From NCBI GenBank assembly GCA_945788675.1, contig CALZMY010000057.1, forward strand, positions 1 to 34,288: DNA of 34,288 nt, read 5' to 3'. Source of the DNA: an uncultured Gammaproteobacteria bacterium (lineage in GTDB: Bacteria; Pseudomonadota; Gammaproteobacteria; SZUA-140). Under the pieces are notes generated by a model, which worked only from the letters and a program-made list of their open reading frames with translations, had not been told where the DNA came from and ran no database searches. The first letter of the stretch is position 1. Every line of letters starts with the position of its first letter. Below are positions 26,372 through 34,288 of the stretch, piece after piece. A program made the translations under genes and the position numbers.

Positions 26372-26746
26372 GTGAATAAAATGATCAAATCTATACTTGT
26401 TGTTGATGACTCTAAAATGTCACGCAAACTTGTCATCAGGGCCTTACCGGAAGAATGGGACGCCCCTGTTTATCAGGCAACCAACGGCCTGGAAGCACTT
26501 GAAATTTTCCATGACAAATCCCCGGATATAATCTTTCTAGATTTGACCATGCCCGAGCTGGACGGCTTTGGTGTACTGGCTGCACTTCAAAAAGAAGATA
26601 ATAAAGTTCCGGTAATTGTGATCAGCGCAGATGTCCAGACGGAAGCCTATGAGCGGGCGATTGGGCTAGGCGCTCGCGCCTTTATCCAGAAGCCGATGAG
26701 TCCCGGGGATGTTAGAAAAGTGGTTCAAGAGCTGCATTTGCTATGA
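26372..26746 (+). CDS. Single-domain response regulator (REC)
   Basis: ILVVDDSKMSRKLVIRAL, phosphoacceptor region DIIFLDLTMPELDGFGVL, VIVISADVQ, AFIQKPMSPGDV. Confidence 0.95.
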   Translation: MNKMIKSILVVDDSKMSRKLVIRALPEEWDAPVYQATNGLEALEIFHDKSPDIIFLDLTMPELDGFGVLAALQKEDNKVPVIVISADVQTEAYERAIGLGARAFIQKPMSPGDVRKVVQELHLL

Positions 26747-27363
26747 TTCAAACCAAAGAGCAATTTGACGAAGACCGTAGAGATGCCCTGCAGGAAGTGG
26801 TCAATATAGCCATGGGACAGGCGGGCGATTCACTGGCAAAGCTGTTCGGTACATTTGTTGAACTTTCTATTCCCAAATTTCATTTATGCGATGTCAACGA
26901 ACTCAACCAGGAACTTTCTAAAAACAGCACCTACGCAGAGAAGATGACCATCCTGCGCCAACCATTCTCAGGACAACTCCGAGGTGAAGGCATTGCCCTG
27001 TTTAACAATAGTGGTGTTAATGAGCTTGCGGTTCTAATGGGATATGAGGGTGAAGTAACATATAGTAATGAACGTGAAATGTTGCTGGATGTTTGCAGCA
27101 TCCTGGTCGGCGCCTGTCTAAATGGCGTTGCTTCCCAGTTGGGGATCTCGCTCAGTTACACGGCGCCAACCATTATCACGAAAGACACTACCACTGAAAA
27201 ATTTTTCAAGCCAGAATCAATCCAATGGCGCTATGCCATGATCATGGAAGTTTGTTTAACACTTGAACAATACGACTTCACCAGCAATATGCTGCTCTTC
27301 CTGTCGGAAGAGAGTTTTCCGCCTTTGATGAATAAACTGGATCAGATGCTCGACGAGCTATGA
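26743..27363 (+). CDS. CheC-like phosphatase
   Basis: N-terminal CheC signature DALQEVVNIAMGQAGDSLAKL (ExxN); a second, degenerate copy in EMLLDVCSILVGACLNGVASQL. Overlaps the upstream REC gene by 4 bp. Confidence 0.8.
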   Translation: MIQTKEQFDEDRRDALQEVVNIAMGQAGDSLAKLFGTFVELSIPKFHLCDVNELNQELSKNSTYAEKMTILRQPFSGQLRGEGIALFNNSGVNELAVLMGYEGEVTYSNEREMLLDVCSILVGACLNGVASQLGISLSYTAPTIITKDTTTEKFFKPESIQWRYAMIMEVCLTLEQYDFTSNMLLFLSEESFPPLMNKLDQMLDEL

Positions 27364-28685
27364 GCACTATGGATGAAAAAGTTTCACATTTAGTAAATAT
27401 GGCAGTCAGCCAGATTAACGCCGGCATGGTGATACTCGATGCCGACCATAATATAGTATTATGGAATCGCTTCATGCAGATTCATAGCGGTATTTCTGAA
27501 GATGATATTAAAGGAAAAAATCTCTTTGATAGATTCCCCGACCTAAAAGGGAGTGGCATCGAAAAAAAAATTGACAGTGTATTTCTATTAAAAAACCTTG
27601 CCTTCACCTCATGGGAATATCGTCCCTATCTATTCAAATTTGCCAATACCCATTCAGTGATTGGCGATGAAGAATGGATGCAACAGGATTGCACTTTCTC
27701 ACCCATGATAGATGAATCTGGCACGGTCACACATATCTGTCTTTCCGTATTTGATGCTACCAACACCGCAACATATCAGAAAAAGCTATTACGAGCGTCA
27801 GGCTCATTAATGAAGCAGCGCAACACACTTGCGGAAATAAACAAAAAACTGGAAGAAGCTCAGAATCAGTTATTGCAATCTGAAAAGATGGCTGCCGTTG
27901 GGCAACTAGCAGCAGGAGTGGCACATGAAATCAACAACCCTGTCGGCTATGTAAACTCGAATGTCTCTGCACTGGAAGGCTATATAAATGAACTTCTACA
28001 GATGCTGGCGGCATACGAAGTATGTGAGCCCGCACTTGACCAAAACAACGCGCTTACTGAAGCGCTTGAGCAGGCTAAAAAATCCATTGATCTTGATTAT
28101 CTTAAGGAAGATTTGATCGATCTTCTAAAGGAATCGAAGGAAGGGCTGGATAGAGTCAAGAAAATAGTTCAGGATCTCAAGGACTTTTCACATGTGGATG
28201 AAAGCGAATGGCAACATGCCGATTTGCATAAGGGGCTGGATAGCACCCTGAATGTGGTCAATAACGAAATCAAGTACAAAGCAGAAGTAATAAAGAACTA
28301 CGGGGAAATCCCTGAAATCAAATGCCTTTCATCTCAAATTAATCAGGTATTCATGAACCTGCTGGTGAATGCTGCACACGCCATAGAGGAACGCGGCACC
28401 ATCACCATTTCCACAGGCACCAAAGATAATGGCGTCTGGGTCGAGATTGAAGACACTGGCTCTGGTATTTCGCAAGAAAAACTCCCCCGAATCTTCGAAC
28501 CATTCTATACCACCAAACCAGTGGGCTCGGGTACCGGGCTAGGCTTGTCACTCTCCTACAATATTATCCAGAAACATAAAGGTATAATTTCTGTCGAGAG
28601 TGAACCGAACAAGGGCACCAGGTTTTATATCTGGTTACCCATAGACATTGAATTCGATGATAACTCCAATGCCAATGTTGCATGA
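27360..28685 (+). CDS. PAS-domain sensor histidine kinase (soluble)
   Basis: PAS region (VSQINAGMVILDADHNIVLWNRFMQIHSGISEDDIKGKNLFDRFPDL), H-box GQLAAGVAHEINNPVGYVNSN, N-box NQVFMNLLVNAAHAIEE, G-boxes EDTGSGIS and GTGLGLSLSY. 4-bp overlap with the preceding gene. Confidence 0.95.
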   Translation: MSTMDEKVSHLVNMAVSQINAGMVILDADHNIVLWNRFMQIHSGISEDDIKGKNLFDRFPDLKGSGIEKKIDSVFLLKNLAFTSWEYRPYLFKFANTHSVIGDEEWMQQDCTFSPMIDESGTVTHICLSVFDATNTATYQKKLLRASGSLMKQRNTLAEINKKLEEAQNQLLQSEKMAAVGQLAAGVAHEINNPVGYVNSNVSALEGYINELLQMLAAYEVCEPALDQNNALTEALEQAKKSIDLDYLKEDLIDLLKESKEGLDRVKKIVQDLKDFSHVDESEWQHADLHKGLDSTLNVVNNEIKYKAEVIKNYGEIPEIKCLSSQINQVFMNLLVNAAHAIEERGTITISTGTKDNGVWVEIEDTGSGISQEKLPRIFEPFYTTKPVGSGTGLGLSLSYNIIQKHKGIISVESEPNKGTRFYIWLPIDIEFDDNSNANVA

Positions 28686-29712
28686 TCCCAGCAAGAAGCG
28701 TCACTTACTTATACTGGATACTATTAATTCAATTCGAAAATTTTTCTCGTTAAAGACAACAACCTGCTATATCCTGTGTCTTTTCATAGTTATGTTTACC
28801 CAAAGCACAAATGCGTCTAGCACCTGCCTTTACATCGCTTCATACCATCAAGGTTACGAATGGAATGATGGCATCGCAAGAGGCGTTGACAACGTATTAG
28901 CGGGTAAGTGTAAAGTTGACAAATATTTTATGGACACCAAGCGCAACAAAGGTGAAGCGTACTATAAAAAATCAGCCCTCGAAGCCAGGGCATATATCGA
29001 GAAAACAAAACCTGACATCGTCATTGTCAGTGATGATAACGCCTCAAAATACCTGGTCATGCCATTTTATAAAGATGCGGCGCTGCCCTTCGTATTCTGC
29101 GGCATCAACTGGACCGTAGAGCCCTATGGCTATCCCTACAAAAATGCCACCGGTATGATTGAGGTAGCCCCCATTCGGCCCCTGCTGAAAGAGATTAATA
29201 ATGTTTTAACATCCACCTCCTCGGGCATCTATCTCTCTGCCGATGTGCTAACAGAACATAAAGACTATGAACGCTATCGTAAAATATACGAGCGAGAAGG
29301 CATCACGCTTAAAGGTGTATTTGTCAAGAGCATGGCAGAGTGGAAGAAAGAATTTATTGCAGCTCAATCTACAAACATTGATTTTATCATTCTAAACAAC
29401 AACAGCGGCATCAATGACTGGAGTGAACAGCAAGGAAGAGATACAGCCCAGGAATACTCAACCGTTTTCTCTGTCACCAACTATGACTGGATGATGCCCT
29501 ACACCATGTTCGCCATGACTAAGCTTCCCGAAGAACAAGGTGAATGGGCAGCAGCTGTGGCACTAGACATTCTTGATGGCGCAACACCGGACAGCATTCC
29601 GATTGTAGCAAACCGAAGATGGAATATATTTGTGAATACGCAACTACTCGACAAGGCTGACATTAAACTTCCACCTCACCTTATTCATAAAGCGATAAAA
29701 ACAGGCATGTAA
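28657..29712 (+). CDS. ABC-type substrate-binding protein (ABC_sub_bind-like), exported
   Basis: Hydrophobic N-terminal segment (CYILCLFIVMFTQSTNAS), then CLYIASYHQGYEWNDGIARGVDNVL...KPDIVIVSDDNASKYLVMPFYKDAALPFVFCGINWTVEPYGYPYKNATGMIEV. The track starts at TTG 28648; ATG 28657, 28669 and 28675 are alternatives. Confidence 0.85.
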   Translation: MITPMPMLHDPSKKRHLLILDTINSIRKFFSLKTTTCYILCLFIVMFTQSTNASSTCLYIASYHQGYEWNDGIARGVDNVLAGKCKVDKYFMDTKRNKGEAYYKKSALEARAYIEKTKPDIVIVSDDNASKYLVMPFYKDAALPFVFCGINWTVEPYGYPYKNATGMIEVAPIRPLLKEINNVLTSTSSGIYLSADVLTEHKDYERYRKIYEREGITLKGVFVKSMAEWKKEFIAAQSTNIDFIILNNNSGINDWSEQQGRDTAQEYSTVFSVTNYDWMMPYTMFAMTKLPEEQGEWAAAVALDILDGATPDSIPIVANRRWNIFVNTQLLDKADIKLPPHLIHKAIKTGM

Positions 29713-30104: not shown

Positions 30105-30830
30105 TCAATGATCGTTACAATCGGACTGGCCGTTGGAAATAAATGCAATCATCCAGCGAGCAATGGTCAGTTCATCGGTCATATTTTGTAATGACTCGAC
30201 ACCCACTTTATAGAGAGCCTCACCCAGCAGTTTACGACGAAACCCCATCAAATCACTGGCATAAGGTTTAGTGAACTCTGGGTGCCCCTGGATCGCAAGA
30301 GTTGCGTCATCTAACTGAAACATCGCATTTGGGCAAAATGGGCTACCCGCGATCAGCTCGGCACCCAGCGGCAGTTCAGTTACCTGATCCTGGTGACTTA
30401 CCAATACGTTGCAGGATTTAAGCGGTGGCTCCATCCACGGTCGTACGGCCGACACCTGCATCGTATGAACGCCAACGCCCCACCCTTTGTCTGACTTCTC
30501 CACCGAGCCACCAAAGGCCTGTGCCACCAGCTGATGCCCAAAACAGATCGCTATCAACTTTTTTTCTTCACGTCGCAGTCGGGTAATGAATGCCTGCAAC
30601 GTCGCAATCCACACCTCATCATCATAGACGCTCGCCTTGCTGCCGGTGGTGATATAGGCGTCGCACTCATCAATATCATCAGGATAGTGCCCTTGCACCA
30701 CATCATAGACATTGAAGCTAATTGCAGGCGCTACCTGATGAAACAACGACTCGATCATCGCAGGATAATTGCCATGCCTGCCCTGAAACTGTGCCTTCAC
30801 TGAGTCACACTGCAAAACCCCGATCTTCAT
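30105..30830 (-). CDS. Class I glutamine amidotransferase-like protein (GMP-synthase-like)
   Basis: Nucleophile motif IAICFGHQLVAQAFGG, His motif IQGHPEF, ITTGSKASVYDDEVW. Confidence 0.92.
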   Translation of the reverse strand: MKIGVLQCDSVKAQFQGRHGNYPAMIESLFHQVAPAISFNVYDVVQGHYPDDIDECDAYITTGSKASVYDDEVWIATLQAFITRLRREEKKLIAICFGHQLVAQAFGGSVEKSDKGWGVGVHTMQVSAVRPWMEPPLKSCNVLVSHQDQVTELPLGAELIAGSPFCPNAMFQLDDATLAIQGHPEFTKPYASDLMGFRRKLLGEALYKVGVESLQNMTDELTIARWMIAFISNGQSDCNDH

Positions 30831-30983
30831 CCGCTCACACCTTCAGTACCATCATCGTCGAACTTACCATAGAGTATTTGTATTGCACGCCCTTATTCGA
30901 TACTTTATAGCCATGTCATACCTATAATGGACAGTCAGTTTGCAATAGGCAAGCTTTCACGACAACAGAAAAAGGTGCCCTCC

Positions 30984-32351
30984 ATGCATGCAAGAGAGGT
31001 TAAGAGTGTTGCTGATGCAAAAAATATCGTCAACGAACGCAACATTCGACACATTAAGATAGGCGTCTTCGATGTCGACGGTGTCCTGCGTGGCAAGTAC
31101 ATCTCACGTGACAAATTTCTTTCCGCACTCGACAAGGGCTTCGGCTTCTGCGATGTGGTACTCGGCTGGGACAGCAAGGACCAGCTCTACGACAACGTCA
31201 ACTACACCGGCTGGCATACCGGCTATCCCGATGCACCGGTACGCATCATTCCAGAATCGTGTCGCGACATCCCGTTTGAAGAAGACACCCTCTTCTTCCT
31301 GTGTGAGTTTACCGACAGTGCCGCCGCGCTCTGCCCGCGCGGCCTGCTGCAACGCACTATCGAAAAGGCCAACAGCATGGGGCTCTTCCCTAATGCCGGC
31401 TTTGAATACGAATTTTTTATCTTCGATGAGACACGTGAATCGGTGCGCAAAAAACAGTATCGCGATCTAACCCCACTGGCCCCGGATTACTTCGGCTATT
31501 CGGTGTTGCGCAACAGCGTCGATGCCGAGATCTACCAGCAGATTCTCGACCTCGGCGAGGCGATGGACTTTCCGATCGAAGGACTGCACGAAGAGACCGG
31601 CCCCGGCGTCATGGAAGCGGCGATCGCCTATGACGAGGCGCTCGCCTCTGCCGACAAGGCGGCGCTATTCAAGACCTTCACCAAGATCGTTGCACAACGA
31701 GCAGGGCTGATGGCGACCTTCATGGCCAAGTGGTCACCGGAATGGCCAGGGCAAAGTGGCCACATTCACATCTCACTCAATGACGCCAACGGCGTAGCGC
31801 TTTTTTATGAGGCCGATAAACCCGATCATATGAGCGATATCATGCGCCACTTCGTTGCCGGGCAACAGCAGTTCATGCCGGAGCTACTGGCGATGATCGC
31901 ACCAACGATCAACTCGTACACACGCCTGATCCCCGGCTTCTGGGCGCCAACCGTCGCCACCTGGGGGGTCGAGAATCGTACCTGTGCACTGCGCGTGATC
32001 CCCGGCAGTGCCAGCTCGCAGCGGGTCGAATATCGGGTTGCCGCAGCCGATGCCAACCCTTACATCATCCTCGCCGCTGCACTCGCCTCTGGTCTCGCGG
32101 GCATCGAGCAGAACCTTGAGCCGGATAACAAGGTCAGCGGTAACGCCTACGAACAGGCCTTCCCCTCCGAGCGCCAGCTACCCACTACATTGTGGGAGGC
32201 GGCACAAAGACTCAAGGACTCGACGATGGCGCGACAATACTTTGGGGATGATTTTGTTGCTCACTACGCTGCCAGCCGCGAGTGGGAAGAGCGCGAGTTC
32301 CGCAAACACATCACCGACTGGGAAATGGATCGTTATTTTGAGATTATTTAG
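30984..32351 (+). CDS. Glutamine synthetase family protein (gamma-glutamyl-amine/amino-alcohol synthetase candidate)
   Basis: GS motifs FEYEFFIFDE, GQSGHIHISL, VENRTCALRVIPGSASSQRVEYRVAAADANPYIILAAALASGL. ATG 30984 is preceded by aaaggtg; the track start 30927 overlaps a TATAAT. Confidence 0.92.
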   Translation: MHAREVKSVADAKNIVNERNIRHIKIGVFDVDGVLRGKYISRDKFLSALDKGFGFCDVVLGWDSKDQLYDNVNYTGWHTGYPDAPVRIIPESCRDIPFEEDTLFFLCEFTDSAAALCPRGLLQRTIEKANSMGLFPNAGFEYEFFIFDETRESVRKKQYRDLTPLAPDYFGYSVLRNSVDAEIYQQILDLGEAMDFPIEGLHEETGPGVMEAAIAYDEALASADKAALFKTFTKIVAQRAGLMATFMAKWSPEWPGQSGHIHISLNDANGVALFYEADKPDHMSDIMRHFVAGQQQFMPELLAMIAPTINSYTRLIPGFWAPTVATWGVENRTCALRVIPGSASSQRVEYRVAAADANPYIILAAALASGLAGIEQNLEPDNKVSGNAYEQAFPSERQLPTTLWEAAQRLKDSTMARQYFGDDFVAHYAASREWEEREFRKHITDWEMDRYFEII

Positions 32352-32363
32352 GGTACGTTCTCA

Positions 32364-33746
32364 ATGAATACTTTTAAGGTTATCTCACCCATCGATAACA
32401 GCTGCTATGCGGAGCGTCCCTATGCAGCAAACGATGAGATCGAGCACGCGCTACAGGCCTCTGCCACCGCGCAGGTGGCGTGGCAGAACACTTCTATTGA
32501 AGCACGTCAGTCAATCTGTTTAAAGGCGGTCAGTGCGCTATTGGCAAGAGAGGCGCGCAGCGCCGAAGAACTGAGCTGGCAGATGGGACGGCCACTGCGC
32601 TATACCCCCGGTGAAATCAAAGTCTTTGCCGAACGTGCGCGCCATATGATCAAAATCGCAGCGCTCAAACTGGCCGATATCGAGATCGAAAGATCTGCCG
32701 AAGCCACCCGACTGATTCGGCGCACCCCGCTCGGCGTGGTACTGTCGATCGTGCCGTGGAACTACCCCTATCTAACCGCCGTCAACTCGATCATCCCGGC
32801 ATTGATGGCGGGAAATAGCGTGATCATGAAACCAGCCTCGCAAACACCATTAACAGCTGAACGTCTCTTCGATGCCTTCAAGACAGCAGGGCTACCATCC
32901 GGCCTTTTCCAGTACCTGTTTATCGACCATGCGACTACCACGAAATTGATCCAGCATGATGCGATCAACTATGTCGCCTTTACCGGCTCCACCCGAGGTG
33001 GACATGAGGTCGAAGCTGCCGCTGTCGGTCGCTTCATTGACATTGGCCTCGAACTGGGAGGTAAAGATCCCGCCTATGTGCGCAGTGATGCCGATACCGA
33101 ACGCGCCATCGAAGGTCTGGTAGACGGCGCATTCTTCAATTCCGGCCAGTCCTGCTGCGGTATCGAACGGATCTATGTGCATAAAGAGCAGTACCAGTCA
33201 TTTTGTGACGGCTTTATCGAACTGACTCGTGAATATCGCCTTGGAGACCCACTCCATCCGGACACCACACTCGGCCCAATGGTCAATGCCAATGCTGCAA
33301 CGCGAGTGCGCAATCAAGTCAACGATGCGATCAAACAAGGTGCTACTGCCACTATTGATGAAAAGGGATTCCAGGCAAGTTGTGTCGACAGCCCTTATCT
33401 CGCGCCGCAGGTGCTGCTCAATGTCGATCACTCGATGGCAGTAATGCGCAATGAAAGCTTTGGCCCTGTGGTCGGTATCATGCAGGTGGACTCCGATGAG
33501 CAGGCCGTTGAATTAATGAACGACTCACCCTACGGCTTAACTGCATCGATCTGGACAGCAGACAGTGACATCGCTCTGACACTCGGCACACAACTACAAA
33601 CCGGAAGCTGTTTCATGAACCGCTGCGACTATCTCGACCCGGCGTTGCCATGGAGTGGCGTTAAAAACTCCGGTAAGGGATGCACCCTTTCAGAGCTCGC
33701 CTATGAGCGACTCACTCAACCAAAATCATTTCACCTGCAAAAATAA
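32364..33746 (+). CDS. NAD(P)-dependent aldehyde dehydrogenase
   Basis: VPWNYPYLTAVNSIIPALMAGNSVIMKPASQTPLTAE, LELGGKDPAYV, catalytic Cys FFNSGQSCCGIERIYV. Confidence 0.95.
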   Translation: MNTFKVISPIDNSCYAERPYAANDEIEHALQASATAQVAWQNTSIEARQSICLKAVSALLAREARSAEELSWQMGRPLRYTPGEIKVFAERARHMIKIAALKLADIEIERSAEATRLIRRTPLGVVLSIVPWNYPYLTAVNSIIPALMAGNSVIMKPASQTPLTAERLFDAFKTAGLPSGLFQYLFIDHATTTKLIQHDAINYVAFTGSTRGGHEVEAAAVGRFIDIGLELGGKDPAYVRSDADTERAIEGLVDGAFFNSGQSCCGIERIYVHKEQYQSFCDGFIELTREYRLGDPLHPDTTLGPMVNANAATRVRNQVNDAIKQGATATIDEKGFQASCVDSPYLAPQVLLNVDHSMAVMRNESFGPVVGIMQVDSDEQAVELMNDSPYGLTASIWTADSDIALTLGTQLQTGSCFMNRCDYLDPALPWSGVKNSGKGCTLSELAYERLTQPKSFHLQK

Positions 33747-33755
33747 ATCTGCATC

Positions 33756-34288
33756 ATGACCGACATCAGCAACATGCTCCGCGGCAACTGGAATTATCCC
33801 ACCACCATCTGGTTCGGCTGTGGCCGCATTGAGGAGCTGCCCAGCGCATGTGTGGCTCTCGGCATGCGACGCCCGCTCCTGGTGACCGATGTAGGACTGG
33901 CCCGGTTACCGATGGTAAGCCAAGCGATCGCGCATAATCAAAATAAAGGCATCCCCACCGAGCTCTTTTTTGACATCAAACAAAACCCCAACGGAGCGAA
34001 TATCGACAAAGGTGTTAAACACTATCGGGATGATGGCCACGATGGCGTGATAGCGCTGGGAGGTGGCAGTGCACTCGATGCCGCTAAAGCGATCGCATTG
34101 ATGACAGGACAGCAGCGCCCACTGTGGGACTTCGAGGATATCGGCGATAACTGGCAACGCGTCGATAGTGCGGGCATTGCGCCAATCGTTGCGATACCCA
34201 CCACCTCCGGTACAGGATCAGAAGTTGGCAGAGCCTCATTGATCGTGAATGAAGAGACACATAGCAAAAAGATCATCTTTCACCCAAA
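33756..34288 (+). CDS. Iron-containing alcohol dehydrogenase, N-terminal part (truncated by window edge)
   Basis: Open from ATG 33756 to the right edge: NYPTTIWFGCGRIEELPSACVALGMRRPLLVTDVGL..., GVIALGGGSALDAAKAIAL, PTTSGTGSEVGRASLI. Confidence 0.93.
   Translation, partial: MTDISNMLRGNWNYPTTIWFGCGRIEELPSACVALGMRRPLLVTDVGLARLPMVSQAIAHNQNKGIPTELFFDIKQNPNGANIDKGVKHYRDDGHDGVIALGGGSALDAAKAIALMTGQQRPLWDFEDIGDNWQRVDSAGIAPIVAIPTTSGTGSEVGRASLIVNEETHSKKIIFHP

Follow-up and report, generated by a model that had tools for sequence, protein, structure and literature searches.

What is a glutamine synthetase-like (GS-like) gene doing at the head of a run of dehydrogenase genes, and on which compound would its product act? 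This question is raised by the right end of the window (the whole stretch of DNA analysed, 34,288 nucleotides), which is the entire contig C57 of a 2.34-Mb metagenome-assembled genome estimated to be 78.5% complete. A class I amidotransferase gene there is divergent from colinear genes for a GS-like ligase, an aldehyde dehydrogenase (ALDH) and an iron-containing alcohol dehydrogenase (Fe-ADH). Our reading, in which the activities and the substrate are assigned to the present organism by comparison with known proteins and operons, is that these four genes very likely form a gamma-glutamylation pathway for ethanolamine.

Gene content of the locus

All four genes are present where a sequence-only reading of this DNA had placed them, and each has a Pfam match:

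30105..30830, minus strand: class I glutamine amidotransferase-fold hydrolase, proposed gamma-glutamylglycine amidohydrolase (GGAH); Pfam GATase 2.8e-11, Cys96/His183/Glu185, fold match to gamma-glutamyl peptidase 1
30831..30983, no strand: divergent intergenic region with candidate operator and promoters; genus alignment and sequence
30984..32351, plus strand: GS-like gamma-glutamyl ligase, 455 aa, proposed gamma-glutamylethanolamide synthetase; Pfam Gln-synt_C 2.9e-102, residues, tree, conserved start
32364..33746, plus strand: aldehyde dehydrogenase, proposed gamma-glutamyl-aminoacetaldehyde dehydrogenase; Pfam Aldedh 2.5e-124, Cys264, Glu230, Asn133
33756..34288, plus strand: 5' part (177 aa) of the Fe-ADH, proposed gamma-glutamylethanolamide dehydrogenase; Pfam Fe-ADH 7.9e-44, overlap with contig C158

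The spacing reported earlier for the ligase, ALDH and Fe-ADH run, 12 and 9 bp, is correct. The start of the ligase gene had been set at 30927 and is revised here: that ATG falls within a TATAATG -10-like box, and the likely start is the ATG at 30984, 57 nt downstream, which has AAAAGGTG upstream, is conserved in the alignment of relatives and yields a protein of 455 aa, the length of most relatives. Within the intergenic region 30831-30983 the alignment of genus members reveals a conserved block (TATTCGATACTTTATA / TATTMGATACTTTATA) beside a TATAAT -10-like box. We regard this block as a candidate operator without a known regulator, and the promoters are likewise candidates. Neither sigma-54 nor NtrC patterns were found in this region.

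The Fe-ADH gene is cut at 34288 by the contig end. Contig C158 (L168) of the same genome starts with 127 bases that repeat the end of the window exactly, and the Fe-ADH frame joined across the two contigs is intact, encoding 393 aa with Asp205, His209, His273, His277 and His287, which are metal ligands in the Fe-ADH family. The sequence-only reading had proposed extending the DNA to the right; the continuation on C158 carries DUF924, PilZ-type and DUF3943 genes, and no transporter, regulator or oxidase was found after the Fe-ADH in these 4.4 kb. The DUF924 gene (L168:749-1258) appears frameshifted near its end in the present assembly when compared with L036.

Elsewhere in the window, positions 26372-29712 hold a signalling cluster that comes after an Rnf operon and consists of a response regulator, a CheX-like protein, a PAS histidine kinase and a periplasmic ABC_sub_bind protein. 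These genes were considered as the operon's regulator and rejected; only the closest relatives have them upstream, other genes take their place elsewhere, and we therefore do not count them as part of the operon.

Conservation of the gene block

Eight of the nine other genomes of the genus carry the GS-like gene at 86-92% identity, and in these eight it is always adjoined by the ALDH and Fe-ADH genes, with the amidotransferase gene divergent; in the ninth, the Fe-ADH at least is present, at the end of a contig. In most genus genomes a VanZ/CBM11-like gene (L036:8725-9672) directly follows the amidotransferase gene, and no remnants of it were found in the window.

For named genomes we took the best 80 loci, at about 62-93% ligase identity, and counted the 60 that have enough flanking sequence. 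The ligase has an ALDH gene next to it in 54 of these 60, an Fe-ADH gene in 53 and both in 52; the three genes are colinear and in the same order in 52/60, and an amidotransferase gene is nearby in 38/60. The block occurs across Proteobacteria and in a few phyla besides, and outside the genus the amidotransferase gene is mostly downstream and in the same direction as the other genes. Because the arrangement recurs in these 52 named loci and in eight of the nine other genus genomes, it is not a product of chance, and the co-occurrence that had been proposed as a check on the pathway is borne out. In L065 (Marinobacterium) and L068 (Pontibacterium) the Fe-ADH gene comes directly after the ligase gene, with no ALDH gene between.

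The GS-like ligase

In the alignment the ligase retains the full set of six metal-binding residues, together with the arginines that bind glutamate and the residues of the ATP site. At the ammonia site, Glu327 is replaced by Trp and Tyr179 by Gly in the window ligase and in all 17 aligned orthologues, and an Asp aligns at the Asp50 column, where the N-terminal alignment is uncertain. The E327 position is W in PauA7 as well and F in GlnA4 of Streptomyces coelicolor (PMC6529630). By this residue pattern the protein is predicted to be a ligase of the gamma-glutamyl-amine type, that is, a GS I-like enzyme with a substrate other than ammonia. It scores 230.7 bits against the GlnA equivalog model (cut-off 429.15) and 211.8 against the GGputSyn model (cut-off 650), and is 32% identical to PuuA. 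In the tree it belongs to a separate clade with good support, distinct from both GlnA and the group that holds PuuA; we claim no deep order, because several of the deep branches are long. A separate GlnA of the same genome is encoded on C187. Whether the protein would group with true GlnA had been posed as a test of the sequence-only reading, and both residues and tree keep the two apart.

Ligase relatives at 53-56% identity adjoin either class III aminotransferase genes together with an N-formylglutamate amidohydrolase gene, or a GMC oxidoreductase gene. The ligase subfamily thus serves other amines too, and membership in the family does not by itself fix the substrate; the Fe-ADH is the member that demands an alcohol. 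Three such relatives on plasmids (L160, L161 and L162, 53-55% identity) have class III aminotransferase, polyamine-type ABC transporter and N,N-dimethylformamidase-like genes, or a GMC oxidoreductase gene and a gene of the gamma-Glu-GABA hydrolase family, and probably act on other amine substrates. We also considered the GS-like structure PDB 5dm3 as the ligase of the EtoX operon and rejected it: halomonad and related genomes match it at only 32-33%, and since they hold no close relative of it, 5dm3 and the present ligase are distinct GS-like proteins.

The amidotransferase and the aldehyde dehydrogenase

The amidotransferase contains both motifs picked out in the sequence-only reading, CFGHQ and HPEF, and its Cys96, His183 and Glu185 triad is invariant in 54/54 homologues. 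Its predicted structure (pLDDT 96) has as its best fold match, by a wide margin, Arabidopsis gamma-glutamyl peptidase 1 (GGP1; 7.0e-24, TM 0.90), and the fold matches include a GGP1 structure trapped as the gamma-glutamyl intermediate. PuuD gave no meaningful sequence match (E 0.012). From the Cys-His-Glu triad and the closest fold of this model, the protein would fit a stand-alone gamma-glutamyl hydrolase of the GGP1 type. At three loci that lack the class I amidotransferase, an N-formylglutamate amidohydrolase gene (PF05013) adjoins the ligase gene (L082:9040-9912, L096:9141-9923 and L161:7140-7964), which suggests an exchange of the deglutamylating enzyme.

The ALDH residues Cys264, Glu230 and Asn133 are invariant in 81/81 sequences, and the protein is 31% identical to PuuC.

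Proposed pathway and its substrate

In the proposed pathway the GS-like ligase would use ATP to link the amine of ethanolamine with the gamma-carboxyl of glutamate. The Fe-ADH would convert the alcohol of gamma-glutamylethanolamide to the aldehyde, and the ALDH would oxidise this to gamma-glutamylglycine. Release of glutamate and glycine would then fall to the amidotransferase-fold enzyme, working on its own as a cysteine hydrolase by way of a gamma-glutamyl-enzyme intermediate. Since the glutamyl tag would mask the amine, no free amino-aldehyde would be made, and glycine is most likely the end product of ethanolamine breakdown. The sequence-only reading had set out these enzymes and steps for an amino alcohol in general; the same steps are assigned in Phaeobacter MED193 and have been proposed for Chromohalobacter salexigens (PMC9397018).

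The sequence-only reading had named ethanolamine as one example of a substrate, and the neighbours of the operon in relatives tie the pathway to it. Eleven named loci have a TRAP binding protein, an EtoX orthologue, that shares 66-82% identity with its counterpart in L116. The L116 protein in turn aligns with 4UAB along about 320 residues (2.1e-159), and a 2025 paper identifies 4UAB as Csal_0678 with bound ethanolamine (PMC12410723). An APC permease gene lies just upstream of the ligase gene in 15 loci. Of the 15 permeases, 11 hit the NCBIfam model for 'ethanolamine permease' with E <= 1e-110, and the two of them given in full pass the model's cut-off. By orthology, these neighbours point to ethanolamine.

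The same gamma-glutamyl route might serve a different amino alcohol in this genus, such as 3-amino-1-propanol, 1-amino-2-propanol or serinol, given that no ethanolamine-specific transporter was found in the genus, that distant ligase relatives evidently serve other amines and that the Fe-ADH requires nothing more specific than an alcohol. We consider this quite unlikely, because the window ligase shares about 63-72% identity with those of many operons, several of which include EtoX or the ethanolamine permease, and the ligases of these EtoX and permease operons have the same residues at the pocket positions inspected (W at 327, G at 179). A Puu-type polyamine pathway with an incidental Fe-ADH, as the identities to PuuA (32%) and PuuC (31%) might imply, is highly improbable. 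The sequence-only reading had noted an Fe-ADH in the place of a PuuB-like oxidase, and no such oxidase is found in the 4.4 kb of C158 or among the neighbouring genes examined in relatives; Fe-ADH is present in 53/60 loci, the amidotransferase is not PuuD-like, and the ligase lies outside the PuuA-holding clade. A true or auxiliary glutamine synthetase beside unrelated dehydrogenases, to which the generic Gln-synt_C match and the 230.7-bit GlnA match could be read to belong, is highly improbable too, given a score far under the GlnA cut-off (429), the loss of ammonia-site residues, a clade separate from GlnA, the genome's own GlnA on C187 and the conservation of the operon.

Possible source of ethanolamine in the genus

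A genome-wide search of 10 genus genomes for the known ethanolamine importers (EutP/Eat-type, EtoX and EutH) found none: the ethanolamine permease model had no match above its cut-off, EutH had none either, and in place of EtoX there were TRAP proteins of just 25-31% identity. EutB (PF06751), the ammonia lyase of the Eut (EutBC) ethanolamine pathway, was likewise not found in any of the 10. No ethanolamine transporter or regulator was found near the operon in the genus. Many relatives lack an importer at the locus too, and a linked importer is therefore an accessory rather than a defining feature of this operon type.

The RuBisCO large subunit is encoded in 8/10 genus genomes and a GDPD-type phosphodiesterase in 10/10, GDPD being a generic family that is present in most control genomes. 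Eight of the ten have a glycine decarboxylase match; the window's own incomplete genome has none. Because the pathway is kept without a recognised importer in a RuBisCO-bearing genus, it may recycle ethanolamine from the cell's own phospholipid turnover rather than use external ethanolamine. We hold this idea to be possible and rather doubtful, and no more probable than passive entry or import by an unrecognised transporter. The lack of a known importer in the genus thereby poses a small, testable question on the source of ethanolamine.

Comparison with known systems

The pathway is already published, in Chromohalobacter and in Phaeobacter MED193, with a related one in Streptomyces; the window operon is therefore an ordinary new occurrence of it, and the scheme of the sequence-only reading an independent rediscovery. 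The finding leaves the known biochemistry unchanged. It adds a genus of uncultured, RuBisCO-bearing gammaproteobacteria to the known range of this ethanolamine route, and it shows how commonly a GS-like gene labelled 'glutamine synthetase' stands first in an operon for amine catabolism.

The E. coli Puu pathway (PuuA, PuuC, PuuD) shares the logic of glutamylating, oxidising and deglutamylating, and that part of the analogy drawn earlier stands. It differs in using the amine oxidase PuuB where the window has an Fe-ADH, and the supposed likeness to PuuD does not hold, since the amidotransferase has almost no PuuD similarity and is not recognisably PuuD-like in sequence. GGP1 (PDB 9k7i) is instead its closest solved relative by sequence (1.2e-21) and by fold (1.7 A), with the same triad motifs, although the two are only about 22% identical. 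The substrates of GGP1 are glutathione-derived.

S. coelicolor GlnA4 (SCO1613) carries out gamma-glutamylation of ethanolamine in vitro, and its cluster resembles the window operon in having a glutamine amidotransferase and an ALDH nearby; in contrast, the alcohol step is assigned there to a short-chain dehydrogenase rather than an Fe-ADH, and the E327 position is F rather than W (PMC6529630).

The Phaeobacter sp. MED193 operon (MED193_10021-10056), which is induced on phosphorylethanolamine, encodes an ethanolamine gamma-glutamylase, a gamma-glutamyl aldehyde dehydrogenase, a gamma-glutamylethanolamide dehydrogenase and a gamma-glutamylglycine amidohydrolase (PMC10132767); that paper credits work on C. 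salexigens (Vetting et al. 2015) and on A. tumefaciens. The window genus locus differs from the MED193 and C. salexigens operons in having no TRAP transporter or RpiR and in the divergent orientation of the amidotransferase gene. Loci such as L110 and L116 combine the window gene family with RpiR and TRAP genes of the EtoXVW type. The likeness, taken at the level of gene roles, lies in the order of ligase, ALDH and alcohol dehydrogenase and in the gamma-glutamylglycine amidohydrolase, and the gene content of the C. salexigens/Phaeobacter type (ligase, ALDH, alcohol dehydrogenase and a putative hydrolase) is present at the window locus.
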